From: Bacteroidales bacterium
Lineage (GTDB): Bacteria > Bacteroidota > Bacteroidia > Bacteroidales > ML635J-15
Reading direction: 5' to 3'
Length of the DNA: 32,099 nucleotides
Assembly (NCBI GenBank): GCA_016937855.1
Contig: JAFGVU010000215.1
Coordinates: 1-32,099 of the forward strand
A program made the translations under genes and the position numbers. Shown piece by piece: positions 10,876 to 27,775 of this stretch; the first letter of the stretch is position 1, and each line of letters starts with the position of its first letter. The notes below the pieces were generated by a model that did no database searches, was not told the origin of the DNA, and saw nothing but the letters and a program-made list of their open reading frames with translations.

Positions 10876-12399
10876 TCAATTATTTTGATGAGCATCTCGA
10901 AGCAAATCAAATATTGTCTTTACGGGATTAAACGTTTCTTCCGGTACTTCAACAAACAAAGTGTTCCAGTTAGCCATAGCACCATTCCAAAGTCCGGGTA
11001 ATTCTAAAGCCTTTAAAATTTTTCCGTCTTTTGATTTTTCTGAAATAAAACCGGTTTCGGGGTCTATAAACTTAGTGAGGTCAAATTTTTCGCCGTTATA
11101 TCTAATCGGACTAAGTACAATATCTACAGGGTTAAAATGAGTAGAATTGTCAAAAATTTCTTTTTTATCGGGTTTGGTTAAGTCAATTTGTGCTTTTTCA
11201 ACAATTTGAAGCGTTGCTGTTTTGTCATTTTGCATTACAAAAAATGGACCTCCGCCGGGTTCTCCTTCATTTTTAACCATTGCACAAACTCTTATTGGTC
11301 TGTCGAGTTTGCCAAGTAAAAATTCTATTTTTTCAGTTCCTGAAAGTTCTGAAAATTCAAAGAATATTTTTACACATAAGTTATTAACAACAAAATTAAA
11401 TGCCTCTTGTATAGTTTCAACCGAAGGATTATGAAGAAGTAAATCAATCAGTTCAAATGTTTTTTTCTGAATTTCAAGCAAAACACCTGCAATTGCTTTT
11501 TTGTACTTGCAATTCTTCTTTTTAAGATAATCAGGAACAACGTTGTCTATGTTTTTTATGAAAATTAGATCAGAGTTAATATTGTTCAAATTATAAATTA
11601 AAGCACCGTGTCCACCTGGTCTAAAAAGAATGTTTTCATTGTCTCTAAATGGAGTATTGTCTGTGTTAAGAGCAATAGTATCGGTAGAGGGGTTTTGAGC
11701 TGAAAAATCAATTTCAAGTTGAGTAGTGGAATATTTTGTAATCAATTTTTGAGAAAGCTCTATGAAATTATTCTTATGTTCAGGAGAAACAGTAAAATGT
11801 ATTTGGCTTTTGTTTTTAGAATTTGCGTATAAAAGAGATTCTACAACATGTTCTTCAAAAGACGTTCTTTTTTCTTCGTTATATTGATGAAATTTTAACA
11901 AACCTTTTGGAAGGTTACCATAATTTAATCCTTCTTCTGAAATAATAAGATTTACTATGGTTTTGTAATTTTTATTTGCAATCTCAGTTTTTAAGTCTGT
12001 TCCCTGATTTTTTAAAATTTCGTTCAGATCTTCATAAAAAGCAAATTTTTCAATGTTGTTTATGAGGTTTTGAATGTCTTTTGGAGTTTCAGAGTTGGTT
12101 AAAGAAACAAATTCGAATAAGTCTTTAAACATTCTGGTAGCAGCACCCGAAGCTGGAACAAACTTCACGATTGATAAATTATCTTTCTTTTTGTTGAAAA
12201 ATTGTAGATAATGGTTTTCTGTTTCTTCGCTTAATTTTTTTATTCCAGAATTGTTTATTGTTGCAGGATAAACAATATTGATAGATGGTATTCCATTGAT
12301 AAATTGAGTAATTTGTTCACTAATAGCAGAAAAAGATATTCCTTTTTTAGCAATTTGTTCTTTGTCTTTTTGGTTAAATGAAGAAAGTAAGTCTGCCAT
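10876..12399 (-). CDS. DUF4301 family protein
   Basis: The 507-residue protein matches the Bacteroidetes family DUF4301 by its landmarks: KFVPASGAATRMFKDLF (about 78-95), FRPGGHGALIYNL, FIKNIDNVVPDYL and NEGEPGGGPFFV. The PASGAATRMFK and GGHGAL motifs resemble the nucleotide-binding Gly-rich loop and sugar-binding region of nucleotide-diphospho-sugar pyrophosphorylases, so a nucleotidyltransferase-like fold is plausible. That is inference, and the family has no settled activity that I know of. There is no signal peptide, so it is cytoplasmic. It is transcribed alone from a well-formed promoter 41 bases upstream of the ATG and is divergent to the acylphosphatase gene. Its 3' neighbour, the giant gene, is co-oriented after 114 bases. 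Confidence 0.85.
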   Translation of the reverse strand: MADLLSSFNQKDKEQIAKKGISFSAISEQITQFINGIPSINIVYPATINNSGIKKLSEETENHYLQFFNKKKDNLSIVKFVPASGAATRMFKDLFEFVSLTNSETPKDIQNLINNIEKFAFYEDLNEILKNQGTDLKTEIANKNYKTIVNLIISEEGLNYGNLPKGLLKFHQYNEEKRTSFEEHVVESLLYANSKNKSQIHFTVSPEHKNNFIELSQKLITKYSTTQLEIDFSAQNPSTDTIALNTDNTPFRDNENILFRPGGHGALIYNLNNINSDLIFIKNIDNVVPDYLKKKNCKYKKAIAGVLLEIQKKTFELIDLLLHNPSVETIQEAFNFVVNNLCVKIFFEFSELSGTEKIEFLLGKLDRPIRVCAMVKNEGEPGGGPFFVMQNDKTATLQIVEKAQIDLTKPDKKEIFDNSTHFNPVDIVLSPIRYNGEKFDLTKFIDPETGFISEKSKDGKILKALELPGLWNGAMANWNTLFVEVPEETFNPVKTIFDLLRDAHQNN

Positions 12400-12477: not shown

Positions 12478-12747
12478 ATGAATACATTTGAAATAACAAT
12501 ATCCGGTTCTAGGGTTCATGGAGTAGGTTTTAGGCGCTTTGTTAAGGATAAAGCTACAATACTAAATCTTACGGGATATGTTAAGAACACTTACGATGGA
12601 AAAGTACTAGCAGTAGTACAAGGAGAAAAAGATGCTGTTGAAACTTTAATAAAATACTGTAGAACAGGTCCGCGTTTGGCTGACGTGGATAGTGTTGATT
12701 TCCAGGGCGTTTCTGAATGTGATTTTTTACAGTTTGAAATTAGATAA
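12478..12747 (+). CDS. acyP: Acylphosphatase
   Basis: The 89-residue protein has the complete acylphosphatase signature. SRVHGVGFRRFV (about 11-22) holds the phosphate-binding loop and catalytic Arg. GYVKNTYDGKV (about 33-43) holds the catalytic Asn and the following Gly-x-V strand. The length is typical for the family, which hydrolyses carboxyl-phosphate bonds such as acetyl phosphate or 1,3-bisphosphoglycerate in the cytoplasm. It lies 88 bases upstream of the Mrp operon, but a promoter in that gap suggests the operon does not depend on it. No clean promoter was found for acyP itself. Confidence 0.92.
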   Translation: MNTFEITISGSRVHGVGFRRFVKDKATILNLTGYVKNTYDGKVLAVVQGEKDAVETLIKYCRTGPRLADVDSVDFQGVSECDFLQFEIR

Positions 12748-12835: not shown

Positions 12836-13342
12836 ATGGAAGCAACAAATAAAATCAGTAAATTCTTTTTCACTTGGGTTGTTTTGTTTGCCATTTGGTT
12901 AGCATTCACTTCTACATTTGCTTTGGCAGAGGTTGTTACTGGAGTTGTTGTAAGTTTTATTATTGCAATTTATAATTTCAATAATTTTACAGAAATAGGC
13001 TTAAAATCTTTTAGTCCAAAAAAGGTGTTGTATATGATACAGTATGTTTTTGTTTTTTTGTGGGCATTGATAAAGTCTAACTTAAATGTTGCCTTAATTG
13101 TACTTAATCCTAAATTGCCAATCAATACGGGGATAGTAGAATTTGAGACAAAATTGAAATCTGATTTTGCAAAATTGGTACTTGCTAACAGCATTACATT
13201 AACACCCGGTACTTTTACTATTGATGTAATAGACAACAAGTATTACATACATTGGCTCGATGTAAAATGTACAGATAGAGACGAGGTTTACAAAGAAATA
13301 GCCGAGCCGTTTGAAAAAATATTATTAAAAATTTTCCAATAA
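12836..13342 (+). CDS. mnhE: Mrp-type antiporter subunit E (MnhE-like)
   Basis: A 168-residue membrane protein of the MnhE/MrpE family. It has two or three hydrophobic segments at the N-terminus (about 9-50 and 62-85) and the family hallmark LANSITLTPGTFTIDV (about 116-131), followed by a soluble tail. MrpE-type subunits are part of the multisubunit cation/proton antiporter module and also occur in MBH/MBS-type respiratory complexes. It is the first gene of the operon, directly behind its promoter, with mnhF 12 bases downstream. The E-F-G order at the head of the operon matches archaeal mbh/mbx gene order. Confidence 0.9.
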   Translation: MEATNKISKFFFTWVVLFAIWLAFTSTFALAEVVTGVVVSFIIAIYNFNNFTEIGLKSFSPKKVLYMIQYVFVFLWALIKSNLNVALIVLNPKLPINTGIVEFETKLKSDFAKLVLANSITLTPGTFTIDVIDNKYYIHWLDVKCTDRDEVYKEIAEPFEKILLKIFQ

Positions 13343-13354
13343 ACATAATCAACT

Positions 13355-13612
13355 ATGGATTTGTTTCTTGAAATAATCTTAGGTGTAGTAGCATTAGCAC
13401 TCATCTTATCGTTTGTAAGGTTTGTAAAAGGACCAACAGCAGCAGACAGAGTTGTAGCATTAGACACAATGTCGGTTACAGTAATTTCTTTACTAGCACT
13501 ATTTGCATTTATGTTTCATCGTATTATTTATATTGATGTTTCGTTGGTGTATGCTGTACTAGGTTTTATCGGAGTATTAATCATTGCCAGATATTTGGAG
13601 GGAGGAATATAA
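13355..13612 (+). CDS. mnhF: Mrp-type antiporter subunit F (MnhF-like)
   Basis: An 85-residue protein with three predicted membrane helices and the family motif FVKGPTAADRVVALDT (about 23-38), followed by LVYAVLGFIGVLIIARYLE. Its length is normal for MnhF/MrpF. In the complex this small subunit sits in the sodium/proton-translocating Mrp part. The stop codon overlaps the next start in TAATG (13610-13613), indicating translational coupling with subunit G. Confidence 0.92.
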   Translation: MDLFLEIILGVVALALILSFVRFVKGPTAADRVVALDTMSVTVISLLALFAFMFHRIIYIDVSLVYAVLGFIGVLIIARYLEGGI

Positions 13613-13971
13613 TGGAAACAGTATTACAATATTTAGGGTATTTTTTCATTTCTGTCGGAGCAGCTTTTTTGCTCTTAGGCTCCTTTGGTATTTTAAGAAT
13701 GCCGGATATTTACAGTCGATTACAGGCAGGAACAAAAGCTTCTACAATGGGGTCTTTGGGTATGTTATTTGGTATCGGTTTTTTAGAACCGCAGTGGCTA
13801 CCCAAAATAATAGTAATTATGATTTTCATACTACTATCAAACCCAATTAGTTCTCATGCAATAGCAAGAGGCTCTTGTAAAAGCGGTATTAAACCAAAAT
13901 TGAACGAAACCGTCAATTCATACAAAAGAATAGCAGAGGGTTGCGAAGAATCAATTAAAAAAGAAGAATAA
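13612..13971 (+). CDS. mnhG: Mrp-type antiporter subunit G (MnhG-like)
   Basis: A 119-residue, three-helix membrane protein. It carries the MnhG signature LLGSFGILRMPDIYSRLQAG (about 21-40) and the polar helix KASTMGSLGMLFG, followed by a third helix and a charged cytoplasmic tail (residues 85-119). It is coupled by TAATG overlaps to mnhF upstream and to the DUF4040 gene downstream. The HAIARG motif after the last helix is typical of the family. Confidence 0.92.
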   Translation: METVLQYLGYFFISVGAAFLLLGSFGILRMPDIYSRLQAGTKASTMGSLGMLFGIGFLEPQWLPKIIVIMIFILLSNPISSHAIARGSCKSGIKPKLNETVNSYKRIAEGCEESIKKEE

Positions 13972-14222
13972 TGAGCGTTTTAACTGTACTTATAGTCGTA
14001 CTTGGAGCAATCTTTTTGGTAGTTGGTGCATGGTATGTGCTTACACGTAAGGATTTGTTAGTCGCTACAATAGCGAGTTCCATAATAAGTTTAATTCTTT
14101 CTGTTTTCTTTTTGATTTTGCAAGCTCCTGATGTTGCACTTACAGAAGCAACAGTTGGAGTAGCACTTACGACAATAATTTTTGTCGTTACAATTAGAAA
14201 CACAAAAAGAATGGAAGAATAA
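13971..14222 (+). CDS. DUF4040 / MbhD-like subunit
   Basis: An 83-residue protein with three hydrophobic helices and the signature LQAPDVALTEATVGVAL (about 49-65). This corresponds to the DUF4040 segment in the C-terminal part of MrpA and to stand-alone MbhD of membrane-bound hydrogenases. The sequence is close to NuoJ in fold. The large MrpA N-terminal antiporter domain is not attached, as in archaeal MBH/MBX and unlike canonical Bacillus MrpA. It overlaps mnhG by TAATG, and a 73-base gap follows. Confidence 0.88.
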   Translation: MSVLTVLIVVLGAIFLVVGAWYVLTRKDLLVATIASSIISLILSVFFLILQAPDVALTEATVGVALTTIIFVVTIRNTKRMEE

Positions 14223-14295
14223 TAATTATATGAAGATAAATGAATTAAGCAGAGTTTTTTTCTGTATTCATTATTCATAATTCAAAAATTTATTT

Positions 14296-15018
14296 ATGAA
14301 AAAAATTATAATAATATTATTATTAGCTGTTATTGGCTACTTTTTGGCTGATATATTTTTCGAAATACCCTTTGGAGAAGATAGTATGGTTGTTTCCAAA
14401 GAATATCTTGATAAATCGCCAAATGATTTACATGTTGCAAATACAGTAACTTCTATTGTTGTTAATTTCAGGGGATTTGATACTCTGGGAGAAGTAACAG
14501 TGTTGTTTTTGGCTTCCACAGCAATTGGCAGCATTCTTTTCCGTCGCAGAAAAGTACATACAAAACTTAATCCACAGCGTAATGCACCACATGCAAGTAG
14601 AATAGTACAAATAAGTGCGAAAATTTTATTTCCTCTTATCGTTCTTCTGGGTGCTTATGTATTTATTCATGGGCATTTAACACCGGGAGGAGGATTTCAA
14701 GGAGGGGTTATTATAGCGACAGGTTATTTATTATTATTAGTTACTTATCGCAAATTTTCAGTTAGTCACTCTTCATTAACCTGGATAGAAGCTATTGCCG
14801 GAGTAACCTTTGCCGGAATAGGTGTTTTAGGATTAATTTTAGGAAAAGATTTTCTTGAAAACTTTTTACCCGTTGGAACAATAAATAATCTTTTTAGTGG
14901 CGGAATCATAGGAATAATCTATGTTGCTGTTGGTTTTAAAGTGGCATCGGAACTTACCGGTATTCTGGACACTATGCTTTCTATTAAAGTTGATTCTGAA
15001 GAAAACGAACAAAATTAA
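14296..15018 (+). CDS. MbhE-MnhB fusion subunit
   Basis: The 240-residue protein joins two families. Residues 1-85 match MbhE (the far C-terminus of MrpA): two hydrophobic helices around the loop NTVTSIVVNFRGFDTLGEV (about 50-68). Residues about 100-230 match MnhB/MrpB: ILFPLIVLLGAYVFIHGHLT, PGGGFQGGVIIATGYLLL, and a last segment FSGGIIGIIYVAVGFKV. In MBH-type operons these are usually two genes, so this is a fusion or an ancestral MrpA-tail plus B arrangement. There are about six membrane helices. It follows a 73-base spacer and is 10 bases ahead of mnhC. Confidence 0.88.
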   Translation: MKKIIIILLLAVIGYFLADIFFEIPFGEDSMVVSKEYLDKSPNDLHVANTVTSIVVNFRGFDTLGEVTVLFLASTAIGSILFRRRKVHTKLNPQRNAPHASRIVQISAKILFPLIVLLGAYVFIHGHLTPGGGFQGGVIIATGYLLLLVTYRKFSVSHSSLTWIEAIAGVTFAGIGVLGLILGKDFLENFLPVGTINNLFSGGIIGIIYVAVGFKVASELTGILDTMLSIKVDSEENEQN

Positions 15019-15028
15019 AATTTGAACA

Positions 15029-15424
15029 ATGAGTGAAGAATTAATGCAACAGATATTATCAATAAGCTTCTACGGAGCCTCGCTTGCACTTATACTTATT
15101 GGTGTATATGGCGTGTTGACAAAGAAAAACCTGATTAAAATATTGTTATCTTTAACAATTGTCGATTCAGGCGTTAACTTACTTTTTGTGTCTTTAGGAT
15201 ACATAATGAATGGAACTGCACCTATCTTTTCACCGGCTATTATGGACGGAAAAATAGAAGTGCTAAAAACAGCTCCAATGGTAGATCCTGTTCCACAGGC
15301 TTTGGTGCTTACCGCGATTGTAATTGGATTAGGAGTTACAGCTGTTGGCTTGGCTCTTGTTATTCGATTATTCAGACATCATAATACAACTAATATTGAC
15401 GAAATAAGAAACTTAAAATGGTAG
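15029..15424 (+). CDS. mnhC: Mrp-type antiporter subunit C (NuoK-like)
   Basis: A 131-residue, three-helix protein of the MnhC/NuoK family, with LALILIGVYGVLTKKNLIKI (about 19-38) and DPVPQALVLTAIVIGLGVTAVGLAL (about 87-111). Its length fits MnhC. NuoK-like subunits form part of the lateral ion path next to the D-type pumps. Its last seven bases overlap the start of mnhD (15418-15424), so the two are translationally coupled. Confidence 0.92.
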   Translation: MSEELMQQILSISFYGASLALILIGVYGVLTKKNLIKILLSLTIVDSGVNLLFVSLGYIMNGTAPIFSPAIMDGKIEVLKTAPMVDPVPQALVLTAIVIGLGVTAVGLALVIRLFRHHNTTNIDEIRNLKW

Positions 15425-16917
15425 TAGCGAATCCTATATTATACGTAGCTCTTCCCTTATTGGTAGCTTTTTTACTGCCTTTATTCGGGAAAATACATAA
15501 GGAGTTGATAAGAGTAGTCCCTGGCTTGTTATTCATGTTCCTGATATTTAATACGGTGGTGTTATTTTCAGAGGTAACATCTACTGGTAAGCCAATTATT
15601 ACTCAAATAGCCGGTTGGGCTCCTCCAATTGGTATTAATTTGGTATTTAGTGCTTTTTCGGGATTTATTGCCGGGATAATATCTATAATGGGACTTCTTG
15701 TTTGGGTGTACAGTTACAAATTTAAGAAGGTTGAGTTCGATAACTCTCTCAAATATTTTGTGCTGATAATGTTAGTAACTGCCGGTTCTATTGGGGTAGT
15801 TCTAACAGGTGATATTTTCAATCTGTTTGTATTCCTTGAAATAGTAGCTTTAAGTTCTTATCCGCTAGTTGCTTTTTATAGAGGAAGAGATGGTGCAGAA
15901 GCCTCTTTTAAATATCTTATAGTTGGAGCATTTGCTTCTATTGCAATATTACTTGGGATCGTCTTAATATATTCTCAATTAGGCACATTAAATATGGCTG
16001 AAATTTCTTTGAGAATTGGAGAAATGCCGGAAAAAATAAAGATTACAGCTTTTATTTTACTTTTCCTTGGTTTTGGTATCGAAGCAGAAATGTTCCCTCT
16101 AAATGGTTGGGCTCCTGATGCTTATTCGCAAGCGCCCGGACCGGTTGGAGCAGTGTTTGCCAGTATGACAGCCAAGGCTGGTATCTATACAATAATTCGT
16201 TTGGTTTTTACACTATTCGATATTGATGCGGGTTATCAGTTGTTGCTTGGTATGGGTATAATTACGTTAGTTGTTTCTGAGGGTATCGCACTAAGGCAGG
16301 AAAAATTAAAAAGAATGCTTGCTTTTTCAAGTCTTGGACAAATGGGATTGTTAATGATTGCATTTGGTATCAACACAAAAGCAGCTGTTGTTGCAGGTAT
16401 GTTTATTCTATTTAATCATGCCGTAATTAAGTCATTGTTATTCTTTTCAGGTAGTTATTTAGTTTATAATTCTGAAAATAAAAACATAAAAGACTTATTT
16501 GGATTTGGTAAAAAACTACCTCTAACAGCTTTCTTATTTGGACTTGGAGCTTTTGCAATAGTAGGCTTACCTCCATTGTCAGGTTTTTGGGCTAAATTAA
16601 GTTTATTAATGGCTTCTGCTGACAGCAATTTAATTGCTTTAATTGCTCTTATTCTGATTGTTAGTGTTGTAGAAATTGTTTACTATTTTAGAGTTGTTAA
16701 CGGACTTTATTTTAAGAAATATACAGGTGAGTTTGAGCCTCACAAACCTTCTTGGAATGCAAGTTTAGTTATGCTTATACTTGCTGCTGTAATTGTTACG
16801 GTTGGACTTTATCCTGACTTAATTTACAATTACTTTGTTAACGCTGCTGATGCTTTGATGGACAAAGCAAACTATATACAAAATGTTTTACCAAGTAACT
16901 TTGTTGGTTTAAATTAG
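15418..16917 (+). CDS. mnhD: MnhD-like proton-translocating subunit, first copy
   Basis: The 499-residue protein has about 14 membrane helices and belongs to the MrpD/NuoL/M/N antiporter-like family. The TM5 glutamate lies in GDIFNLFVFLEIVALSSYPL (about 138-157). The TM7 lysine lies in FASMTAKAGIYTIIR after the AEMFPLNGWAPDAYSQAPG loop. A second pump-type motif appears as LFNHAVIKSLLFFSGSYLV. These residues support a working ion channel. It overlaps mnhC by 7 bases and is followed after 21 bases by a second D-type pump. Confidence 0.93.
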   Translation: MVVANPILYVALPLLVAFLLPLFGKIHKELIRVVPGLLFMFLIFNTVVLFSEVTSTGKPIITQIAGWAPPIGINLVFSAFSGFIAGIISIMGLLVWVYSYKFKKVEFDNSLKYFVLIMLVTAGSIGVVLTGDIFNLFVFLEIVALSSYPLVAFYRGRDGAEASFKYLIVGAFASIAILLGIVLIYSQLGTLNMAEISLRIGEMPEKIKITAFILLFLGFGIEAEMFPLNGWAPDAYSQAPGPVGAVFASMTAKAGIYTIIRLVFTLFDIDAGYQLLLGMGIITLVVSEGIALRQEKLKRMLAFSSLGQMGLLMIAFGINTKAAVVAGMFILFNHAVIKSLLFFSGSYLVYNSENKNIKDLFGFGKKLPLTAFLFGLGAFAIVGLPPLSGFWAKLSLLMASADSNLIALIALILIVSVVEIVYYFRVVNGLYFKKYTGEFEPHKPSWNASLVMLILAAVIVTVGLYPDLIYNYFVNAADALMDKANYIQNVLPSNFVGLN

Positions 16918-16938
16918 AAATTACAGAAAACATTAAAA

Positions 16939-18768
16939 ATGAGTAATTTAGTCATCATTTTAGCTATATTTGGCTGGGCAATCTTAACTTACTTAGCCTT
17001 TAAAATTAACAAAACTTTGGGTAATGTTTTTGTTGGTGTTTTAGCACTTGCATTACCTGCGTATTTCTTTACTTATACTCCAAGTGATTATACTGTGAGT
17101 GTAATGGGAATGAGTTTGCAGTTTGGTTTCACTTCATTTGCATCGCTTTTTGCTATGCTTGTAGTTGTGCTTTCTTCATTTGCTCTTTTGTATTCTATTC
17201 CTTATATGAATAAAAAAGACCGATTGGGGTGGTTCTACATGAATTTTATGTTTTCGGTCGGTGGTATGATGGGTATTTTGATGAGTAAAGATCTTGTTTC
17301 TCTTTTCATTTTCTGGGAAATAATGACTTGGTCATCTTACCTAATTGTTATTTACCAAGGTAAAAAAGTAAATAAAGTAGGACTAAAGTATATGATTTTT
17401 AGTGCAATTGGAGCTTACGCAATGTTAATGGCAATTGTACTGATTAACAAATGGAGTGGTAATGTAAATATTGAGCAGTTTTTTGCTTCTTTCCCAAATT
17501 ATTCAAGTGCAGCAAAATTATTAAGTAGTTTATTGTTACTTACAGGATTTGGTGTGAAAAGTGCTTTGATGCCGTTACATGTATGGGCACCTGGTGCTTA
17601 TACTAAATCTCCTATGTCTTATACCGCTGTTTTTTCAGGTGCATTATCTAAGATGGGTATCTATGGTATGGCGTTGGTAGCGGTTAATTTATATGTTCAT
17701 TCAAATATGCCTATTATGGGTGAAGTTATTGCCTGGGCTGGTGCGATTACTGCGGTTTTAGCTACTTTTTGGGCAATATTCCAAAACGATATACGAAAAC
17801 TTTTAGCTTATTCTTCTATTGGTCAATTAGGCTATATTGCGGTTGGACTAGGAATAGGAACAGAGCTTAGTGTTTTTGCCGGATTGTATTTAGCGATTCT
17901 TCACGGATTATTCAAAGGAGTTTTGTGGATGGTTGTTGGAGCAATTGAACACAGAACCGGAAAAACGGATTTTAGAGATATTAGTGGATTAATCAAAAAA
18001 ATGCCTTTTACATTTTTTGTAGCATTGGTTGCTATTATAGCTCTTGCCGGTATGCCGCCTTTATCTGGTTTTGTTGGAAAATGGATGCTTTATGAATCTA
18101 TGATAACCTCAAATCATTTTATTATGGTTCTCTTTATTTTCCTTTCAAGTACCGCAGCATTTTTATATTGTTTCCACTTTTTATACGGACTTTTCTTAGG
18201 CCAACAAGAAGACGAATTTTTGAAAGATGTTAAAGAAGTTCCTGTTTTAATGATGATTCCAATGGGACTTATCAGTTTGTCTCTAATAGCTTTTGGTACT
18301 TTCCCTGGATTAATTTTCAAACCTATTGCACAAGCAATGAGTACATTGGGATTTGAAAATGTAACTTGGCGAATGTCTTCTCTTACAAACGCGTGGGGAA
18401 ACAGTATGTTTTTAAAACCTGCTAACTTCATGTTTATGGCTGTGTTTGTGTTCTTCCTTATTATTATTACTGTGGTAAATCACAAAAAGACCAAAAAAGT
18501 TGGAACAAAAGACATAGCAAATGGAGGAGAACCAATTCGAGATGAAGACAATTTACATTATTCAGTAGATATTTACAGACCATTCTACCGTGTAATTTCT
18601 CCAATTATGAAATATAAAGTTGAAACTTTCTATAAAAGAATTTCTAAAGGAATTGAAGAATTCTTTCAGTTTTTTAGAAGAATATATTCAGGGAACGGGC
18701 AAACTTACGCTTTATACGTGGTAATATTCTTAACAGCTCTTTTAATTTTAAGTTCAACTATTTTTTAA
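16939..18768 (+). CDS. MnhD/NuoL-like proton-translocating subunit, second copy
   Basis: The 609-residue protein is a second antiporter-like pump, longer than the first by a C-terminal extension with an amphipathic cytosolic stretch and a final helix (about 500-609). The key charged residues are present: Glu in SLFIFWEIMTWSSYLIVIY (about 121-139) and Lys in VFSGALSKMGIYGMALVA. The loop KSALMPLHVWAPGAYTKSP is typical of the family. The terminal helix with a lateral stretch is reminiscent of the NuoL arm but shorter. Two D-type pumps per complex distinguish archaeal MBX/MBS from MBH, which has one. The NuoH-like gene follows after 19 bases. Confidence 0.92.
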   Translation: MSNLVIILAIFGWAILTYLAFKINKTLGNVFVGVLALALPAYFFTYTPSDYTVSVMGMSLQFGFTSFASLFAMLVVVLSSFALLYSIPYMNKKDRLGWFYMNFMFSVGGMMGILMSKDLVSLFIFWEIMTWSSYLIVIYQGKKVNKVGLKYMIFSAIGAYAMLMAIVLINKWSGNVNIEQFFASFPNYSSAAKLLSSLLLLTGFGVKSALMPLHVWAPGAYTKSPMSYTAVFSGALSKMGIYGMALVAVNLYVHSNMPIMGEVIAWAGAITAVLATFWAIFQNDIRKLLAYSSIGQLGYIAVGLGIGTELSVFAGLYLAILHGLFKGVLWMVVGAIEHRTGKTDFRDISGLIKKMPFTFFVALVAIIALAGMPPLSGFVGKWMLYESMITSNHFIMVLFIFLSSTAAFLYCFHFLYGLFLGQQEDEFLKDVKEVPVLMMIPMGLISLSLIAFGTFPGLIFKPIAQAMSTLGFENVTWRMSSLTNAWGNSMFLKPANFMFMAVFVFFLIIITVVNHKKTKKVGTKDIANGGEPIRDEDNLHYSVDIYRPFYRVISPIMKYKVETFYKRISKGIEEFFQFFRRIYSGNGQTYALYVVIFLTALLILSSTIF

Positions 18769-18787
18769 TTTTTGATAATCATTCACA

Positions 18788-19696
18788 ATGGATATAGGAA
18801 GATTTTTATTGACATCAATTACTACTACTGCATTAGCATTTGTAGTTGGTATGTTTTATGCCGGATTTAGAAGAAAAATTACTGCACGTGTTCAAAATCG
18901 TGTTGGACCTCCTGTTTATCAGAATTTTATCGACGTGGTTAAACTGTGGAGTAAAAAAAGTAATATTACTCATGGTGTAATGCAGCATCTTGCTCCTTTA
19001 TGGCAAATTGCAACTTCAATTACTACTTTGATGTTTATTCCGATACTTGTTGACAGCACTTTCTTTGTTAACCTTACCTTTAAAGGGGATTTAATTTTCC
19101 TTTTATATCTTATGGTAGTTGGTTCGCTTGGAATGGCACTTGGAGCTGGTGAAGGAGGAAACCCAAATAGTGCAATTGGTGTAACAAGGGGACTTACCCA
19201 AATGATTGGTTTTGAAATTCCTTGGGTTATGGCACTTGTTGCGTTGATGATTCAACATCAAACAACTACAATTGTAGGTTTAATGGATGTGCAACAGGCT
19301 TCAGGAACTTGGCTAATGTTTAGTTCTCCTTTTGCATTTTTGGCTGCTCTTTTAGCAATGCCTGGAATGTTCAGATATTCCCCGTTTGATATTGTAGGTG
19401 CGCCAGCAGAGTTGGCATCGGGACCAATTTCAGAGTTTGGAGGGAAATATCTTGGTACCCTTATGACAAATGGTTCTATCTTTGCCTTTGTTAAACTTGT
19501 GCTTTATGTTGATATTTTTATGGGCGGAGCAACAAACCTTGTTCTATTAGTTGTAAAAACTTTTGTTTTGTATATGTTCCCTGTTCTTTGGGGTTTGGTT
19601 TCTCCACGATTTAGAACAGAACAATCTGTTAGGTTTTTCTGGGGATGGCCTTTGTTCTTTGGGCTTCTTGGGATTTTACAAGCAGCTTTTTTGTAA
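18788..19696 (+). CDS. NuoH/MbhM-like membrane anchor subunit
   Basis: A 302-residue, about eight-helix protein of the NuoH/HycD/MbhM family. The N-terminal quinone-site-like loop reads ARVQNRVGPPVYQNFIDVVK (about 33-52), the glutamate-rich loop has GAGEGGNPNSAIGVTRGLTQ, and the conserved RYSPFDIVGAPAELASGPIS motif with the following EFGGKY loop matches hydrogenase-type members more than NuoH. This subunit links the peripheral redox arm to the ion pumps. A quinone is not needed in MBH/MBS complexes, so the NuoH likeness does not prove quinone use. It is followed by a 137-base spacer with repeats before the NuoB-like gene. Confidence 0.92.
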   Translation: MDIGRFLLTSITTTALAFVVGMFYAGFRRKITARVQNRVGPPVYQNFIDVVKLWSKKSNITHGVMQHLAPLWQIATSITTLMFIPILVDSTFFVNLTFKGDLIFLLYLMVVGSLGMALGAGEGGNPNSAIGVTRGLTQMIGFEIPWVMALVALMIQHQTTTIVGLMDVQQASGTWLMFSSPFAFLAALLAMPGMFRYSPFDIVGAPAELASGPISEFGGKYLGTLMTNGSIFAFVKLVLYVDIFMGGATNLVLLVVKTFVLYMFPVLWGLVSPRFRTEQSVRFFWGWPLFFGLLGILQAAFL

Positions 19697-19716
19697 AAAA
19701 TAATAAATAAAAGTTA

Positions 19717-19749
19717 AGCCTAAATTGTAACTTTATTGACTTTTGGGCT
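19717..19749 (+). other. Intercistronic stem-loop
   Basis: AGCCTAAA (19717-19724) can pair with TTTGGGCT (19742-19749), including one G-U pair, with a 17-base loop. No U-run follows, so it is not a terminator. It may stabilise or process the mRNA between the membrane and redox halves of the operon. Confidence 0.4.
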
Positions 19750-19784
19750 AAATATGAAAAAATATATACCAGAAAACAAGTCAT

Positions 19785-19830
19785 CTCGATAACTCGAAAA
19801 CTGGTCTACTGGTTAACTCGATAACTGATT
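19785..19830 (+). repeat. Degenerate ACTCGATAACTGG mini-repeat
   Basis: The spacer before the NuoB-like gene contains CTCGATAACTCGAAAACTGG followed by CTACTGGTTAACTCGATAAC, that is several degenerate copies of an about 8-base (T)AACTSGW unit. Similar filler occurs at 20439-20489 and, on the other strand, at 29283-29325. Confidence 0.6.
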
Positions 19831-19833
19831 AAG

Positions 19834-20379
19834 ATGGTAAACGATAAAGAATCACGAAAAATAGTTGATATAATTCAGGATTTTGCAAGAAAAAGTTCAC
19901 TTTTTGTTCTTGCTTATGGTACTGGTTGTGGGGCAATAGAAATTCCGCCGACAATGACATCAAGATACGATGCCGAACGTTTTGGGATTAGAGGTGCTGC
20001 TACTCCTCGTCAAGCCGATGTATTACTTATTACAGGTTATCTTGCAACGAAAAGTTTGAAGCGTGTTATACGTGCTTACGAACAAATGCAAAACCCTAAA
20101 TACATTATTGGTTTTGGCTCTTGTACTATTAATGGTGGAATGTATTGGGATTCATATAATACTATAAACCGACTTGATATGTATATGCCTGTTGATGTTT
20201 ATATTAACGGTTGTATGCCTCGTCCCGAAGCTGTTATTGCCGGTTTTGCTAAATTGCAGAAACTTATTCAGGCCGGAAAAGCCGACGGTTGGGAGCGTTA
20301 TCAAAATAACCTTGAGTTTTATCGCAAAAACCAAAAGAAAATTATTCATAATTGGGTAATGCCGGATTATAATTGGTAA
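19834..20379 (+). CDS. NuoB/MbsJ-like iron-sulfur subunit with only three cysteines
   Basis: A 181-residue NuoB/hydrogenase small-subunit homologue. Landmarks are the GTGCGAIEIPP loop (Cys32), SRYDAERFGIRGAATPRQAD, FGSCTINGGMY (Cys97) and INGCMPRPEAV (Cys127). These are the only three cysteines in the protein. Complex I NuoB has two adjacent cysteines at the first loop, and energy-converting hydrogenases have CxxC; here the second is Gly33. The proximal [4Fe-4S] cluster would thus have three Cys ligands and an open or non-Cys site. That agrees with the site-differentiated cluster described for Pyrococcus MBS. SRYDAERFG resembles the hydrogenase/MBH branch. It is cytoplasmic, in the redox arm. 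A basic C-terminal tail (140-181) is longer than in NuoB. Confidence 0.92.
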   Translation: MVNDKESRKIVDIIQDFARKSSLFVLAYGTGCGAIEIPPTMTSRYDAERFGIRGAATPRQADVLLITGYLATKSLKRVIRAYEQMQNPKYIIGFGSCTINGGMYWDSYNTINRLDMYMPVDVYINGCMPRPEAVIAGFAKLQKLIQAGKADGWERYQNNLEFYRKNQKKIIHNWVMPDYNW

Positions 20380-20388
20380 ACGAAATTT

Positions 20389-20489
20389 AGAACTAAGAAC
20401 TAAGAACTAACAAGTAATAATATTACTTAGACAATTTTCTGGTTAACTGATTAGCTGATTAACTGGTTAACTGATTAACTGGTTAACTA
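20389..20489 (+). repeat. Spacer of tandem mini-repeats
   Basis: The 135 bases between the NuoB- and NuoC-like genes hold three runs of AGAACTA(A) at 20389-20411 and a small hairpin AAGTAAT-AAT-ATTACTT at 20412-20428. Next comes a run at 20439-20489 built from units of the type CTGGTTAA / CTGATTAA. There is no ORF and no clear promoter. Confidence 0.7.
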
Positions 20490-20514
20490 ACAACACGAAA
20501 CTAATAACTGTTAT

Positions 20515-21075
20515 ATGGAACAAGAATTATTAGATCTTTTAGTCGAACACTTTCAAGACAGGATTGCCGGAAGTGTTAAAAGTGACAAAAGAGTAGAAAT
20601 ATTTACTTCAACTAGTGCTATTGAAGATGTATTGATGTATGCCAAAAATGTGTTGGGATATATTCATTTAGTGCATTTTTCATGTGTTGACTGGATTGAA
20701 GAAAATGAATTTGAGTTGATGTATGCTATATTTTCTCCTAAATCTAAAATAACTATCATGTCGAAAGTTAGAGTAGATAGAGAGAATCCGGTAGCTCCTA
20801 ATATTGACTATATTTGGAGACATGCTAATACATTTGAGAGAGAAATACGAGAAATGTTTGGTATTGAATTTACAGGATTAATAGCCGAAAAAGAAATGAT
20901 ATTAGAAGACTGGATTGAAATGCCTCCAATGAGAAGGGATTTTGACACAGCTGAATATGCTAAAAAAACTTTTTTTGATCGTCCGGGACGTGAAGATGCT
21001 CAGGATGTTAGAGAAACAATAATTAAAAGAACCGGCGAAGAATTACCGGAATTTTCTAAGAAATATTCAAGATAA
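20515..21075 (+). CDS. NuoC-like (30-kDa) subunit
   Basis: The 186-residue protein belongs to the NuoC / HycE N-domain family. The signature WRHANTFEREIREMFGIEFT (about 101-120) is the 30-kDa subunit motif (ERExxDxFGI), followed by ILEDW and MPPMRRDF, which replace the usual RL..DYG..G PLRKD ending. NuoC-type proteins scaffold the NuoD-like subunit and carry no cofactor. The stop codon overlaps the next start in TAATG, so NuoC- and NuoD-like proteins are coupled. In many hydrogenases these two are one fused protein; here they are separate. Confidence 0.92.
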   Translation: MEQELLDLLVEHFQDRIAGSVKSDKRVEIFTSTSAIEDVLMYAKNVLGYIHLVHFSCVDWIEENEFELMYAIFSPKSKITIMSKVRVDRENPVAPNIDYIWRHANTFEREIREMFGIEFTGLIAEKEMILEDWIEMPPMRRDFDTAEYAKKTFFDRPGREDAQDVRETIIKRTGEELPEFSKKYSR

Positions 21076-22184
21076 TGAAACAAGATAGAAGTACAACTTT
21101 ATATTTAGGACCTCAACACCCGGGAATTACCGGAAATATGATGATCAAACTTCAATTGGAAGGTGATACAATTGTTAAGGCTACTACCCATGTGGGATAT
21201 TTACACAGAGGATTTGAAAAACTTATTGAACGTCGTAATTGGCTTCAAAGTTTTACTATTTTGTGCCGTATGTGCGTGCCGGAACCCGATCCAAATGAAG
21301 AAAATTATGCAAGAGCAGTAGAGCAAATTGAGGGTAGAGAAGTTCCTGAAAGAGCAAAATATATTCGTGTTTTGGTTTTAGAACTTGCACGGTTAGCTTC
21401 TTTGTTACTTTGGTACGCAGGACAGCCTGGTTCTGCCGGTTTATACACAATGGGACAATGGTCTGTTGGTGATAGAAACTATATTCTAGATTTGTTTGAA
21501 GAATTAACTGGTGGACGTATTTACCACATGTATATTTGGCCGGGTGGTGTTCGTAGAGATTTACCGGAAGGATTTGGAGATAGAGTTTTAAAAGTAATGG
21601 ATTATCTTGAAAAACGTTGGAAAGATTACGACAGACTTATGTTTGATAATGCAATTTTCCAAAAACGTGCTAAAGGTGTTGGAATTATTAATCCTAAAAA
21701 AGCCCGTGAATGGGGCGTTGTTGGACCTCCTTTGCGTGGTTGCGGCATAAAAAGTGATGTTAGAATTGATGAACCTTACGAAGTTTATGATAAATTAGAT
21801 TTTCAGGTACCTGATATGTACAAAGACGGTGATGTATGGTCAAGAGCTTTGGTGCGAAGATTTGAATTTTTACAATCTATAAGCATTGTTCGTCAGGTTA
21901 TTGAAAAAATGCCACAAGGACCTGTTTTTAATAAAATTCCTAATCCACATAAATGGGTTGTACCCAAAGGTGATGCTTTGGTTAAAACAGAAACAGTTCG
22001 TGGCGAATCAGCATTCTATGTTGTAAGCGACGGATCAAACAAACCAAGACGTGTTCACTTAAAAGGACCTGCTTATATTCATGGATTCACTTTATTAGAG
22101 GACGTACTTGTTGGAGCAAATCTAGCTGATGTTTCATTTATTATGAACAGCTTAGGGACTTGTCCTCCGGAAATGGAAAGATAA
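21075..22184 (+). CDS. NuoD/MbsL-like large subunit with degenerate [NiFe] site
   Basis: The 369-residue homologue of NuoD and the [NiFe]-hydrogenase large subunit keeps LGPQHPGITGNMM (11-23) and GYLHRGFEKL (41-50). The N-terminal metal motif is LCRMCVPEPDPNEE: Cys64 and Cys67 sit where hydrogenases have CxxC, but the H after it is missing and three residues appear inserted. The C-terminal motif SLGTCPPEMER keeps the first Cys (Cys363) of DPCxxC, and Glu366 replaces the second. Three of four Ni ligands therefore survive, so a functional [NiFe] site is unlikely, yet the site is less eroded than in NuoD. That intermediate state is known from MBX/MBS-type proteins. The product is cytoplasmic, in the redox arm. 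Confidence 0.9.
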   Translation: MKQDRSTTLYLGPQHPGITGNMMIKLQLEGDTIVKATTHVGYLHRGFEKLIERRNWLQSFTILCRMCVPEPDPNEENYARAVEQIEGREVPERAKYIRVLVLELARLASLLLWYAGQPGSAGLYTMGQWSVGDRNYILDLFEELTGGRIYHMYIWPGGVRRDLPEGFGDRVLKVMDYLEKRWKDYDRLMFDNAIFQKRAKGVGIINPKKAREWGVVGPPLRGCGIKSDVRIDEPYEVYDKLDFQVPDMYKDGDVWSRALVRRFEFLQSISIVRQVIEKMPQGPVFNKIPNPHKWVVPKGDALVKTETVRGESAFYVVSDGSNKPRRVHLKGPAYIHGFTLLEDVLVGANLADVSFIMNSLGTCPPEMER

Positions 22185-22229
22185 TAATCAAAGTACAATT
22201 GATAATGTACAATTAATAATTTATAAATT

Positions 22230-22247
22230 CCCTCTTAAAAAAGAGGG
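22230..22247 (+). other. Intercistronic hairpin CCCTCTT-AAAA-AAGAGGG
   Basis: A perfect 7-bp stem with a 4-base loop lies in the 109-base spacer between the NuoD-like gene and the fusion gene. No U-run follows it, so it is more likely an RNA processing or stability element than a stop signal. The direct repeat GTACAATT occurs just upstream (22190-22215). Confidence 0.5.
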
Positions 22248-22293
22248 TAGAAAGATGTAAAAATCCTATAATTAAAAACTTAAACTAAATACA

Positions 22294-24111
22294 ATGAGTT
22301 TTTTCAACATAAAAGGAACAGTTAACCCATTAACAGCTTTGGCTCAGTTTGCTAAAAAACCTCATACTTTGCGTTTCCCGGAAGTTGAAGTTGAAGCAAA
22401 AGACAGATACAGAGGGGTTCATTATAATGATTTACAAGCATGTATTGGTTGTGGTAATTGTTCCACTATTTGCATGAATGAGGCTATCGACATGATTAAT
22501 ATAGCCGGGATTGACTCTTCAAAAGGCGATACTGGGCTTCGTCCAAGAGTTGATAATGGTCGTTGTTGTTGGTGTGCTTTGTGTGTTGAGGTTTGTCCTA
22601 CCGGTTCATTAAGTCTTACCAAAGATTATATTTATGTTACAGAAGATGCTGACGCATTTTTGTGGACTCCGGGTGTTGATAATCCTGAAGGAGTAAATCT
22701 TAAAAGCTTTGTTTCCAGTAAAGAACATTCATTGAACGTTTACGGAAGAGTTCCAATGAAAGAACTTGTCGGAATGGAACGTGTGAAATCATTTGCCGAA
22801 GTTGTTCTTGGATACGAGGAAGCCGAAGCCAGACTTGAAGCTAGTCGTTGTATTAGTTGCGGTATTTGCACCGAAGTTTGTCCTGAACACATGCATATTC
22901 CTGAATACATAAATGCAATTGCTGCCGGAAAGGATGAAGATGCTCTTAGAATTATTTATGATAATAATCCATTCCCTGAAATGTGCGGAAAAGTTTGTAC
23001 ACGTCGCTGCGAAGAGGTTTGTGCAATGACACATAGAGGAGTAGAAGATGATCCACATGATAAAGGTGCTATTGCTATTCGTTGGTTAAAACGATACGTA
23101 ACAGAAACTGCTCCTACTGCTGAAAGAATTAAAGAAATTGTTAACCCTGAAATTTCAGAATCTAACGGATTTAAAGTTAGCATTATTGGTGCTGGTCCAT
23201 CTGGACTTACTGCCGGATATTATTTAGCTCTGAGAGGTTTTGATGTTACAATATACGAAGCTCTTAATAAAGCAGGCGGTATGACTATGTGGGGAATTCC
23301 AAAATATCGTTTCCCAATGGATAGTCTCGACAAACAAGTTGAGTATATGGAAAGTATCGGCGTAAAAATTAAATACAACACAAGAGTTGGAGTTGATATT
23401 CAATTTGATGATATTTATAGTAATTCTGATGCCGTATTTTTAGGAATTGGTTATCAAAAAGCGTGGACTTTGGGTATTGACGGAGACGACATGCCGGGAG
23501 TTATTGCAGCAGTTGATTATTTGAGAGAAATAAACGGTGGAGGAACCCTTGATGTTGGAAATAAAGTAGTTGTAATTGGAGGCGGTAACGTTGCTATTGA
23601 CGGAGCCAGAGTTTCTGCTCGTCATGGTGCAGATGTTACAATTCTTTATCGTCGTAGAGTTCAGGATATGCCTGCAGATTGGGAAGAAATTGAAGGTGCT
23701 GAACACGAAGGTATTACAATTGTTCCTCAAGGTATTCCTGTTAAATTTATTGCCGGAGATGATGGAAAGGTCAAATATGTTCGTTACTTGAAAGCTGAAA
23801 TGAAAGTTGAAAAAGAAGGCGCAAGACCAAGTCCTGTTGCTATCGAAGGAAGTGAAACAGACATTGAAGTAACTACAGTTATTGGTGCAATTGGTCAGGA
23901 AGCTGATTATTCGTTCATTCCTGAATCATTTAAAGATAAAATTGAAATTAACCGAGGTAGAATTATCACTTATGAATACAATCAGACAAAAGATCCGAAA
24001 GTATTTGCAGGCGGAGATACTGTTAACAAAACAGCTGATGCAATTAGTGCTATCGCTGACGGTTTCCAAGCAGTAAAAGGCATCGTAAAAATGTTACTTA
24101 AAGAAGAATAA
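22294..24111 (+). CDS. Fusion of a NuoI-like 2x[4Fe-4S] domain with an NfnB/GltD-like FAD/NAD(P)H oxidoreductase
   Basis: The 605-residue protein begins with a NuoI-like ferredoxin domain. Cluster 1 ligands are Cys50, 53, 56 and 60; cluster 2 ligands are Cys91, 94, 97 and 101. After a linker (about 115-180) comes the GltD/NfnB-type part. Its N-terminal iron-sulfur ligands are Cys186, 189, 192, 196 and Cys231, 235, 239, 243. The FAD site is IIGAGPSGLTAGYYLA (297-312), the NAD(P)H site is VVVIGGGNVAIDGARVSARH (425-444), and the C-terminal FAD contact is FAGGDTVNKTADAISAIADG. GltD and NfnB use NADPH, but the nucleotide here is not decidable by eye. A wire of up to four [4Fe-4S] clusters can link NAD(P)H/FAD to the NuoB-like cluster. 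No NfnA-like [2Fe-2S] partner is encoded nearby. It is the last gene of the operon, before a strong terminator. Confidence 0.93.
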   Translation: MSFFNIKGTVNPLTALAQFAKKPHTLRFPEVEVEAKDRYRGVHYNDLQACIGCGNCSTICMNEAIDMINIAGIDSSKGDTGLRPRVDNGRCCWCALCVEVCPTGSLSLTKDYIYVTEDADAFLWTPGVDNPEGVNLKSFVSSKEHSLNVYGRVPMKELVGMERVKSFAEVVLGYEEAEARLEASRCISCGICTEVCPEHMHIPEYINAIAAGKDEDALRIIYDNNPFPEMCGKVCTRRCEEVCAMTHRGVEDDPHDKGAIAIRWLKRYVTETAPTAERIKEIVNPEISESNGFKVSIIGAGPSGLTAGYYLALRGFDVTIYEALNKAGGMTMWGIPKYRFPMDSLDKQVEYMESIGVKIKYNTRVGVDIQFDDIYSNSDAVFLGIGYQKAWTLGIDGDDMPGVIAAVDYLREINGGGTLDVGNKVVVIGGGNVAIDGARVSARHGADVTILYRRRVQDMPADWEEIEGAEHEGITIVPQGIPVKFIAGDDGKVKYVRYLKAEMKVEKEGARPSPVAIEGSETDIEVTTVIGAIGQEADYSFIPESFKDKIEINRGRIITYEYNQTKDPKVFAGGDTVNKTADAISAIADGFQAVKGIVKMLLKEE

Positions 24112-24132: not shown

Positions 24133-24163
24133 AAAACTCTCGCATAATTGCGGGAGTTTTTTT
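24133..24163 (+). terminator. Intrinsic terminator of the Mrp/Nuo-like operon
   Basis: AAAACTCTCGCA and TGCGGGAGTTTT pair around a TAAT loop (10-12 bp with one T-G pair), followed by a run of seven T. It lies 21 bases after the last stop codon, so it closes the operon cleanly. Confidence 0.9.
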
Positions 24164-26581: not shown

Positions 26582-27775
26582 ATGCAAAACATTAAACAAC
26601 TTATTAACCAAATTGCAGGTTATAAAACCGAAAATCTTTTTGGGCACGATTTTATCAATACTTGGGATAAAAATCTAAACGAACTTAAACAACTATTGCT
26701 TGTTGCTGAAACTCTTAAAGAAATGAGAGACAATAACATATCAGCAAAAATGTTTAAATCAGGATTGGCTGTTTCTCTTTTTAGAGATAACTCAACTCGT
26801 ACTCGTTTTTCTTATTCTTCTGCTGCTAATTTACTTGGGCTAGCTGTTCAGGATTTGGACGAAGGCAAAGCGCAAATTGCTCATGGTGAAACAGTTCGCG
26901 AAACAGCAAACATGATTTCTTTCCTTTCCGAAGTAATTGGTATTCGTGATGATATGTATCTTGGAGCAGGCGAAAAATATATGCGTGAAGTTGGTGATGC
27001 TCTTACCGATGGTTTCCAACAAGGCGTTTTACCTTCACGTCCTGCAATTGTTAACCTACAAAGTGATGTTGATCATCCAACTCAATCATTGGCTGATTTA
27101 CAACACCTTGTAAAATATTTTGGTAGCCTTGATAATTTAAAAGGCAAAAAAATAGCTGTAACATGGGCATATTCACCTAGTTACGGAAAACCACTTTCAG
27201 TTCCTCAAGGAATTATTGGTCTTATGACACGTTTTGGAATGGATGTTTCTTTAGCTTATCCTAAAAATTATAATTTAATTCCTGAAGTTGAGCAATTGGC
27301 TGATAAACAAGCACAAGAAAACGGAAGTAAATTTGAAATCGTTGATTCAATGGAAGCAGCGTTTGAAAATGCAGATATTATTTATCCAAAAAGCTGGGCT
27401 CCATATTGGGTAATGGGCGAACGCACAAAATTGTTGCAAAATAAAGATCATGACGGACTAAAAGCTCTTGAAAAACAAGCTCTTGCAGAAAATGCAAATC
27501 ACATGAATTGGGAAACAGATGAAGCAAAAGTGAAACTTACAAAAGGCGGAAAAGCTCTATACATGCACCCGCTACCTGCTGATATTTCAGGACTTAGCTG
27601 TGTAAACGGAGAAGTAACAAATGAAATTTTCGACCGTTACAGAATTGAAACATACAAAGAAGCAGGCTGGAAACCTTATGTTATTGCTGCAATGATGCTT
27701 ACAAGCAAATTCCAAAATCCGGCTCAGGCTTTACAACAAATGCTAGATAAAAATTCAAAAAGAATTATGTACTAG
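26582..27775 (+). CDS. ygeW: YgeW-type knotted carbamoyltransferase
   Basis: The 397-residue protein matches the YgeW family in length and motifs. The carbamoyl-phosphate loop is SLFRDNSTRTRFSY (65-78, Ser71-Thr-Arg-Thr-Arg). The second-substrate and carbamoyl-phosphate residues lie in VDHPTQSLADLQHL, and the C-terminal HPLPADISGLSCVNGEVT loop is characteristic of YgeW rather than of ornithine or aspartate transcarbamylases. The family has the knotted fold of N-acetylornithine transcarbamylase, and its amino-acid substrate cannot be read from sequence. E. coli ygeW sits in a purine-catabolic cluster, while here it stands alone with its own promoter and no ureide or purine genes nearby. It is cytoplasmic. 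Confidence 0.93.
   Translation: MQNIKQLINQIAGYKTENLFGHDFINTWDKNLNELKQLLLVAETLKEMRDNNISAKMFKSGLAVSLFRDNSTRTRFSYSSAANLLGLAVQDLDEGKAQIAHGETVRETANMISFLSEVIGIRDDMYLGAGEKYMREVGDALTDGFQQGVLPSRPAIVNLQSDVDHPTQSLADLQHLVKYFGSLDNLKGKKIAVTWAYSPSYGKPLSVPQGIIGLMTRFGMDVSLAYPKNYNLIPEVEQLADKQAQENGSKFEIVDSMEAAFENADIIYPKSWAPYWVMGERTKLLQNKDHDGLKALEKQALAENANHMNWETDEAKVKLTKGGKALYMHPLPADISGLSCVNGEVTNEIFDRYRIETYKEAGWKPYVIAAMMLTSKFQNPAQALQQMLDKNSKRIMY

Follow-up and report, generated by a model that had tools for sequence, protein, structure and literature searches.

The closest described relative of the system reported here is the MBS complex of Pyrococcus furiosus (Protein Data Bank, PDB, entry 6u8y), which we take to be the complex formerly named MBX. 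In the published work, the iron that lacks a cysteine ligand in the proximal cluster of MBS carries the activity, and cysteines C25, C85 and C385 are dispensable (PMC7684303); the MBX of Thermotoga maritima has 13 subunits, and its mbxA transcript is raised by sulfur (PMC9431562). This type of complex is therefore already known. Here we describe a counterpart in a Bacteroidales bacterium (assembly GCA_016937855.1): a 13-gene operon at positions 12836-24111 on the plus strand of contig JAFGVU010000215.1, whose 32,099 nucleotides constitute the stretch analyzed (hereafter, the window). Judging from its sequences, the operon almost certainly belongs to the MBX/MBS branch of the complex I superfamily. 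Among the Creative Commons-licensed PubMed Central articles listed, a scope that makes the absence weak evidence, we found no paper on an MBX/MBS-type complex in Bacteroidota or Caldithrix, nor any account of a division into two clades by cofactor motif, as reported below.

The open reading frame (ORF) list of the window gives exactly the coordinates and gene order of the original prediction, from MrpE, F and G through MbhD, MbhE-MnhB, MnhC and two MnhD genes to NuoH, NuoB, NuoC, NuoD and a NuoI-GltD fusion, and profile searches against NCBIfam and Pfam matched the encoded proteins to their families far above chance. The features are as follows, with PDB scores given for the chains of MBS (6u8y) and for the competing structures.

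12836..13342, plus strand: MrpE/MnhE-type subunit, MbsA counterpart (Pfam MNHE 1e-40, above cut-off; NCBIfam MrpE models, below cut-offs)
13355..13612, plus strand: MrpF-type subunit (NCBIfam antiporter subunit F 4.5e-27, below cut-off)
13612..13971, plus strand: MrpG-type subunit (NCBIfam subunit G, above cut-off)
13971..14222, plus strand: MbhD/DUF4040 subunit (Pfam MbhD 3.6e-20; 6u8y_D, 52 bits, is the better of two PDB matches, MBH having 49)
14296..15018, plus strand: fused MbhE-MnhB subunit (Pfam MbhE and MnhB, each above cut-off)
15029..15424, plus strand: MnhC/NuoK-type subunit (NCBIfam subunit C 7.6e-29, below cut-off)
15418..16917, plus strand: MnhD1, antiporter-like, MbsH counterpart (6u8y_H 353 bits, MBH 214)
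16939..18768, plus strand: MnhD2, antiporter-like with a long C-terminal extension, MbsH' counterpart (6u8y_X 319 bits, MBH 184)
18788..19696, plus strand: NuoH-type membrane anchor, MbsM counterpart (Pfam NADHdh 5e-50; 6u8y_M 162 bits, MBH 75.5)
19834..20379, plus strand: NuoB-type subunit, MbsJ counterpart (6u8y_J 224 bits, complex I-type 130, MBH 108; ligand columns C32, C97, C127)
20515..21075, plus strand: NuoC-type subunit, MbsK counterpart (Pfam Complex1_30kDa 5.9e-25)
21075..22184, plus strand: NuoD-type subunit, MbsL counterpart (6u8y_L 355 bits, complex I 238, MBH 147; also alignment columns and tree)
22294..24111, plus strand: NuoI-GltD fusion with two NuoI-type clusters, Fer4_20 clusters and a predicted FAD and NADP(H) site (NCBIfam, PDB, motif columns)
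24133..24160, plus strand: intrinsic-terminator-like hairpin after the last gene (12-pair stem and T run; pattern match)

Assignment to the MBX/MBS branch draws on both gene content and similarity. The expected Mrp-type set and two antiporter-like subunits are present, and P. furiosus MBS was the top PDB match for six of the seven subunits compared. The alignment of MnhD2 with 6u8y_X extends through the C-terminal extension; for the fusion, the top matches fall on its GltD part and 6u8y_N leads among NuoI-type matches. The operon shares with MBS its subunit types, an open proximal cluster, two surviving [NiFe] cysteines, the MbsH/MbsH' pair and an MbhE-MnhB-type subunit formed as one chain (MbsE). 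It differs in that MbsN is a 208-residue NuoI-type chain without the GltD/FAD/NADP module, that MbsJ C25 is replaced by glycine in the window NuoB, that MbsM E193 and E104 are lost, and that its host is a bacterium. No gene bears the name NuoJ or NuoN, as the original prediction noted, yet in the MBX/MBS family the equivalent places are taken by MbhD/MbhE and the MnhD proteins.

A NuoD tree of 56 rows separated the operons of this branch into two types: type 1, which includes the window operon, and type 2, which includes a second operon of the same genome. MbsL, type 1 and type 2 formed one clade (support 100/99), within which type 1 (96/98) and type 2 (100/100) were separate clades joined to the exclusion of MbsL (93/91), while the complex I and [NiFe] rows fell outside. 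The input comprised 34 of the 79 type-1 rows, all 17 type-2 rows and five reference rows with a single MBS row; because the reference rows are long-branched, and the program flagged that long branches meet in the tree, the deepest splits are insecure.

These results bear on the two better-known families to which the operon might have been assigned, both of which the original prediction had correctly set aside. Complex I was rejected: NuoD is nearer to MbsL, the quinone-site residues are lost, and the operon lacks NuoE, NuoF and NuoG. A group 4 [NiFe] hydrogenase was likewise rejected, as the CxxC...CxxC motif is broken, NuoD groups outside the [NiFe] rows, and the genome, provisionally since its assembly is 95.4% complete, contains no PF00374 hydrogenase, its only PF00346 proteins being the two MBX-type NuoD. 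In the window NuoD, two of the four [NiFe] cysteines remain (C67 and C363). After removal of short rows (3 of 99 for NuoD, 9 of 92 for NuoI-GltD), the first cysteine of each pair was kept in every type-1 row with a letter there (79/79 and 77/77), and the second was glutamate in every row with a letter at that position. Of the 17 type-2 rows, 8 retain both first cysteines and the other 9 have neither; because C25, C85 and C385 are unneeded in MBS, this partial loss, taken alone, still leaves room for sulfur chemistry. Ehr complexes, as far as described in PMC6349859, resemble the operon in their group-4-like modules, incomplete [NiFe] site and Mrp-type subunits, but their proposed partner is a formate dehydrogenase, a gene that the window operon lacks.

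The NuoB loop holds a single cysteine, with no fourth cysteine in any of the 84 type-1 rows, and the proximal [4Fe-4S] cluster would therefore have three cysteine ligands (C32, C97 and C127, equivalent to MbsJ C28, C93 and C123), as in MBS. The three-cysteine arrangement occurs in 84/84 type-1 and 15/16 type-2 NuoB rows, the exception (locus L144) being represented by a short NuoB match only. This site also weighs on whether the complex could act as an NADPH:quinone oxidoreductase, providing a complex I-like entry into the menaquinone chain. The superfamily and membrane arm are common to complex I, and the presence of an nqr cluster in the genome implies a quinone. But the histidine equivalent to Nqo4 His38 is threonine in 95/95 rows with a letter there, Tyr87 is valine in 96/96, the paired cysteines of complex I are missing from the NuoB columns, and Nqr could itself do the NADH:quinone work, all of which makes quinone reduction unlikely.

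The last gene of the operon, expected from the outset to supply an NAD(P)H module, does so and allows the cofactor to be narrowed. The window fusion matched NCBIfam PRK13984 (NF010590) at 8.4e-182 and 605.5 bits, and the type-2 fusion of the same genome at 888.9 bits, both below the cut-off of 946 that is exceeded in T. maritima. The fusion of NuoI with GltD is thus not new, since the family occurs above cut-off in T. maritima, where it presumably belongs to Mbx. Besides 6u8y_N, the PDB matches of the fusion include NfnB/GltD-type proteins, with which it shares Fer4_20, FAD and NADP domains, the YRR motif and seven NfnB cluster cysteines; it differs from them in being fused to NuoI within a membrane-complex operon and in carrying lysine in place of the cluster ligand Glu117. 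In the 83 full-length proteins, all nine NuoI cysteines checked and all seven NfnB cluster cysteines were kept, and Glu117 was lysine in every one.

YRR stands at residues 452-454 of the window protein and occurs in 66/66 full-length type-1 and 0/17 type-2 fusions. In all 17 type-2 proteins both arginines are replaced by Leu-Glu, which is preceded by a short insertion in the three rows displayed. In NfnB of T. maritima the phosphate of NADP is bound by YRR, and strict dependence on NADP(H) is described for a DsrL-2 enzyme that carries the motif (PMC7596348). Accommodation of NADP(H) by the type-1 module is thus suggested by its motif; the type-2 module may use NAD(H), a weaker step because the absence of YRR is by itself no proof of NAD(H) use. 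In-frame stops (three TAA and one TGA) interrupt the NuoI-GltD copies at G299:C18:108986-110773 and G386:C106:80608-82395, and some copies may therefore be broken or misassembled. Two long ORFs elsewhere in the genome also contain GltD-like parts (C4:1509-4381, 1231 aa, beside a NuoF-type match, and C180:12658-13815, 1123 aa).

Several Nfn-named enzymes bifurcate electrons, and the solved relatives of the fused module include NfnB and other Nfn-named chains. By analogy, the module could split the electrons of NADPH between ferredoxin and the proximal cluster. Such flavin-based bifurcation was set aside as first choice because the Glu117 ligand is replaced by lysine throughout, and we regard it as quite improbable.

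The sequences show homology, the order of the genes, the cysteines of the clusters, the NADP motif and the clade to which the operon belongs; which acceptor is used, which way electrons flow, and how ions are coupled and in what stoichiometry we infer. We tentatively favor a type-1, NADP(H)-linked complex of the MBS type, in which electrons would run from NADPH through the open iron to sulfane sulfur and so power an Mrp-type ion pump. NADPH would give up its electrons to the FAD carried by the GltD/NfnB-like domain that is joined to NuoI. From there they would pass along that domain's two [4Fe-4S] clusters, then along the pair belonging to NuoI, and reach the NuoB proximal cluster, whose iron without a cysteine ligand would be the catalytic site, as in MBS. 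There, a small acceptor, most likely sulfane sulfur in the form of polysulfide, would be reduced, and this redox step would power H+ or Na+ movement by the Mrp-type membrane arm. Besides the similarity to MBS, the NuoD tree, the open iron, the loss of the quinone-site residues and the YRR motif, points in its favor are nfnAB-type genes next to 4 of 84 type-1 loci, a PhsA-like gene next to 2 of 84, and the retained counterparts of MbsD E58 and of MbsM D196, E203 and E211.

Several observations weigh against this scheme. Electrons passing from NADPH to polysulfide fall through a small potential difference, so that pumping would be weak. How the proximal cluster is ligated in the NfnB-like domain is uncertain, its fourth ligand being replaced by lysine. 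The window NuoH has no residue equivalent to MbsM E193 or E104. A PhsA-like gene directly downstream of the type-1 operon was seen in just 2 of 84 loci (L077:15590-17884 and L079:15587-15982), both from Flavobacteriales, with a sub-cut-off score and with L079 cut by a contig end. The frequent neighbor described below, a dihydroorotate dehydrogenase (DHOD)-like gene, has no place in the scheme. Our literature search turned up no biochemical work on a bacterial complex of this family, and in MBS the electron donor is ferredoxin (PMC7684303).

Ferredoxin is the donor in a further explanation, which takes the complex to be an energy-conserving ferredoxin:NADP+ oxidoreductase. This is one reading of the original prediction and a published view of P. 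furiosus Mbx, which may pump H+ (PMC6349859), and it is consistent with the NADP(H) module and with the nfnAB-type genes that adjoin 4 of 84 type-1 loci. However, electrons passing from the NuoI clusters to the flavin would skip the proximal cluster and, by the mechanism of the family, leave the pump undriven; because electrons on this route could avoid the NuoB cluster, which on the analogy of MBS and complex I drives the pump, ferredoxin-to-NAD(P)+ pumping is doubtful. MBS, moreover, reduces sulfane sulfur (PMC7684303), and an rnf cluster is already present in the genome. We consider this explanation somewhat unlikely.

The same rnf cluster disposes of the suggestion that the operon replaces Rnf, which was rejected because RnfD/NqrB-type and RnfC-type matches adjoin on contig C90 (locus L168). 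In a profile search the genome contained two loci with RnfD/NqrB-type matches, this one and an nqr cluster on C65 (L172) with one NqrB/RnfD-type match; only the RnfD/NqrB and RnfC-type proteins were matched by models, and the remaining genes of both clusters were read from the ORF list. RnfC/NuoF-type matches numbered six and [FeFe]-hydrogenase-type matches five. Three of the latter lie on C10 (L170), with regulator-like genes nearby as read by eye.

The favored NADPH-to-sulfane scheme concerns type 1, to which one of the genome's two operons belongs. The second, on contig C214 (L003:4477-16151), has diverged substantially (NuoD is 49% and NuoI-GltD 44% identical to the window proteins): its two MnhD proteins are fused (1042 aa), YRR is absent, its MrpF and MbhD genes are shorter than the ORF-listing length, and an FNR/CRP-kind gene lies divergently upstream (E 4e-14, below cut-off), as an FNR/CRP-type gene does at 11 of 18 type-2 loci.

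Among 393 genomes sampled from the window's order, 58 (its own included) encode an MBX-family NuoD at E <= 1e-100. By hand count, 31 of these genomes have a NuoD match of 73-100% and 36 one of 48-52%, with nine having both and none falling between. The NuoI-GltD fusion occurs in 7 of 31 genomes sampled from the window's family and, at full length, in 2 of 296 from its phylum, again counting its own genome. The counts of type-1 and type-2 loci come from non-random samples, the order survey being closer to random. The named relatives are the best 80 of at least 564 confirmed loci and are all type 1, as expected because they were ranked by likeness to the window NuoB; for type 2, the search query was an alignment of the two copies in the window genome, and 20 stretches were picked by hand. 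The 84 type-1 loci include two duplicated records (L060/L154 and L080/L160), and L035 and L038 have identical NuoB, NuoC and NuoD; without the two duplicates, YRR is found in 64/64 type-1 proteins and a DHOD-like neighbor at 31/82 type-1 loci.

With these findings the MBS branch of the superfamily reaches into Bacteroidota and related groups, where its carriers are scattered but fairly numerous and where two lineages appear to have divided the NADPH and NADH pools. They offer a sequence-based test of how the superfamily swaps its electron donor while retaining the pump, and they predict a path in anaerobes from pyridine nucleotides to sulfur compounds.

The most frequent neighbor is the DHOD-like gene (PRK07565, NF005741), which, counted when on the same strand of the fetched stretch, accompanies 17 of 18 type-2 loci, on the downstream side in every case; at type-1 loci it is present in 31 of 84 (22 upstream, 9 downstream). 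It lies directly downstream of the second operon (L003:4480-5466), scored above cut-off in all three examples scored, and at type-1 loci L021 and L074 stands about 2.4 kb away with nfnAB-type genes intervening. Where at least 1.2 kb is visible on each side of a type-1 locus, it is present in 11 of 22 and absent in 11. Dihydropyrimidine dehydrogenase combines GltD-like, DHOD-like and ferredoxin-type domains, and the association could mean that an organic substrate is handled by the DHOD-like flavoprotein, in the manner of that enzyme, with the pump as a second outlet. No such gene adjoins the window operon, however, and among 14 control genomes PRK07565 matched in three that do not include T. 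maritima, the one genome in which PRK13984 matches. PRK07565 is thus not a general part of such complexes, as the window operon and T. maritima are without it, and action on an organic substrate is the least probable explanation considered here. It is about equally improbable that cells of this order with both types run paired NADP(H)- and NAD(H)-linked pumps on a common sulfane pool, which, if opposed, would form an ion-motive transhydrogenase with the DHOD-like protein as an extra component. A search not aimed at the question met no DHOD-like neighbor of MBX operons in print. A further PRK07565 copy in the genome, on C53, adjoins PyrK/PyrD-like genes, as read by eye.

The gene order of the operon recurs in the 80 relatives as far as each contig extends, compared by best plus-strand matches only, and a chance arrangement was rejected because the same order is repeated across them. 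Their record titles and origins name Bacteroidota, Chlorobiota, Ignavibacteriota, Calditrichota, Fidelibacterota and one Spirochaetota metagenome-assembled genome. Many of the host sample names presumably refer to sulfidic springs, caves, vents and seeps. Co-transcription of the operon genes appears likely from the sequence: the NuoH-NuoB, NuoB-NuoC and NuoD-NuoI-GltD gaps (109-137 bases each) are free of terminator-like matches, and the 12-pair hairpin with its T run comes after the final stop codon. The scan is weak evidence, being noisy enough to yield 15 terminator-like matches where 6.9 were expected, five of them on the plus strand within operon genes, and 58 promoter-like matches against 47.2 expected. 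The NuoB-NuoC gap contains tandem GGTTAACTGATTAACTG-like repeats at 20441-20481 (4 matches, 0.02 expected), and similar sequence occurs at 19780-19830.

Elsewhere in the window, the minus strand encodes a 2985-aa secreted-looking protein (1804-10761) and a 507-aa protein without an NCBIfam match (10876-12399). An acylphosphatase-family gene, below the cut-off of each model, lies just upstream of the operon on the same strand (12478-12747), and a YgeW-type knotted carbamoyltransferase gene, above cut-off, is found at 26582-27775.

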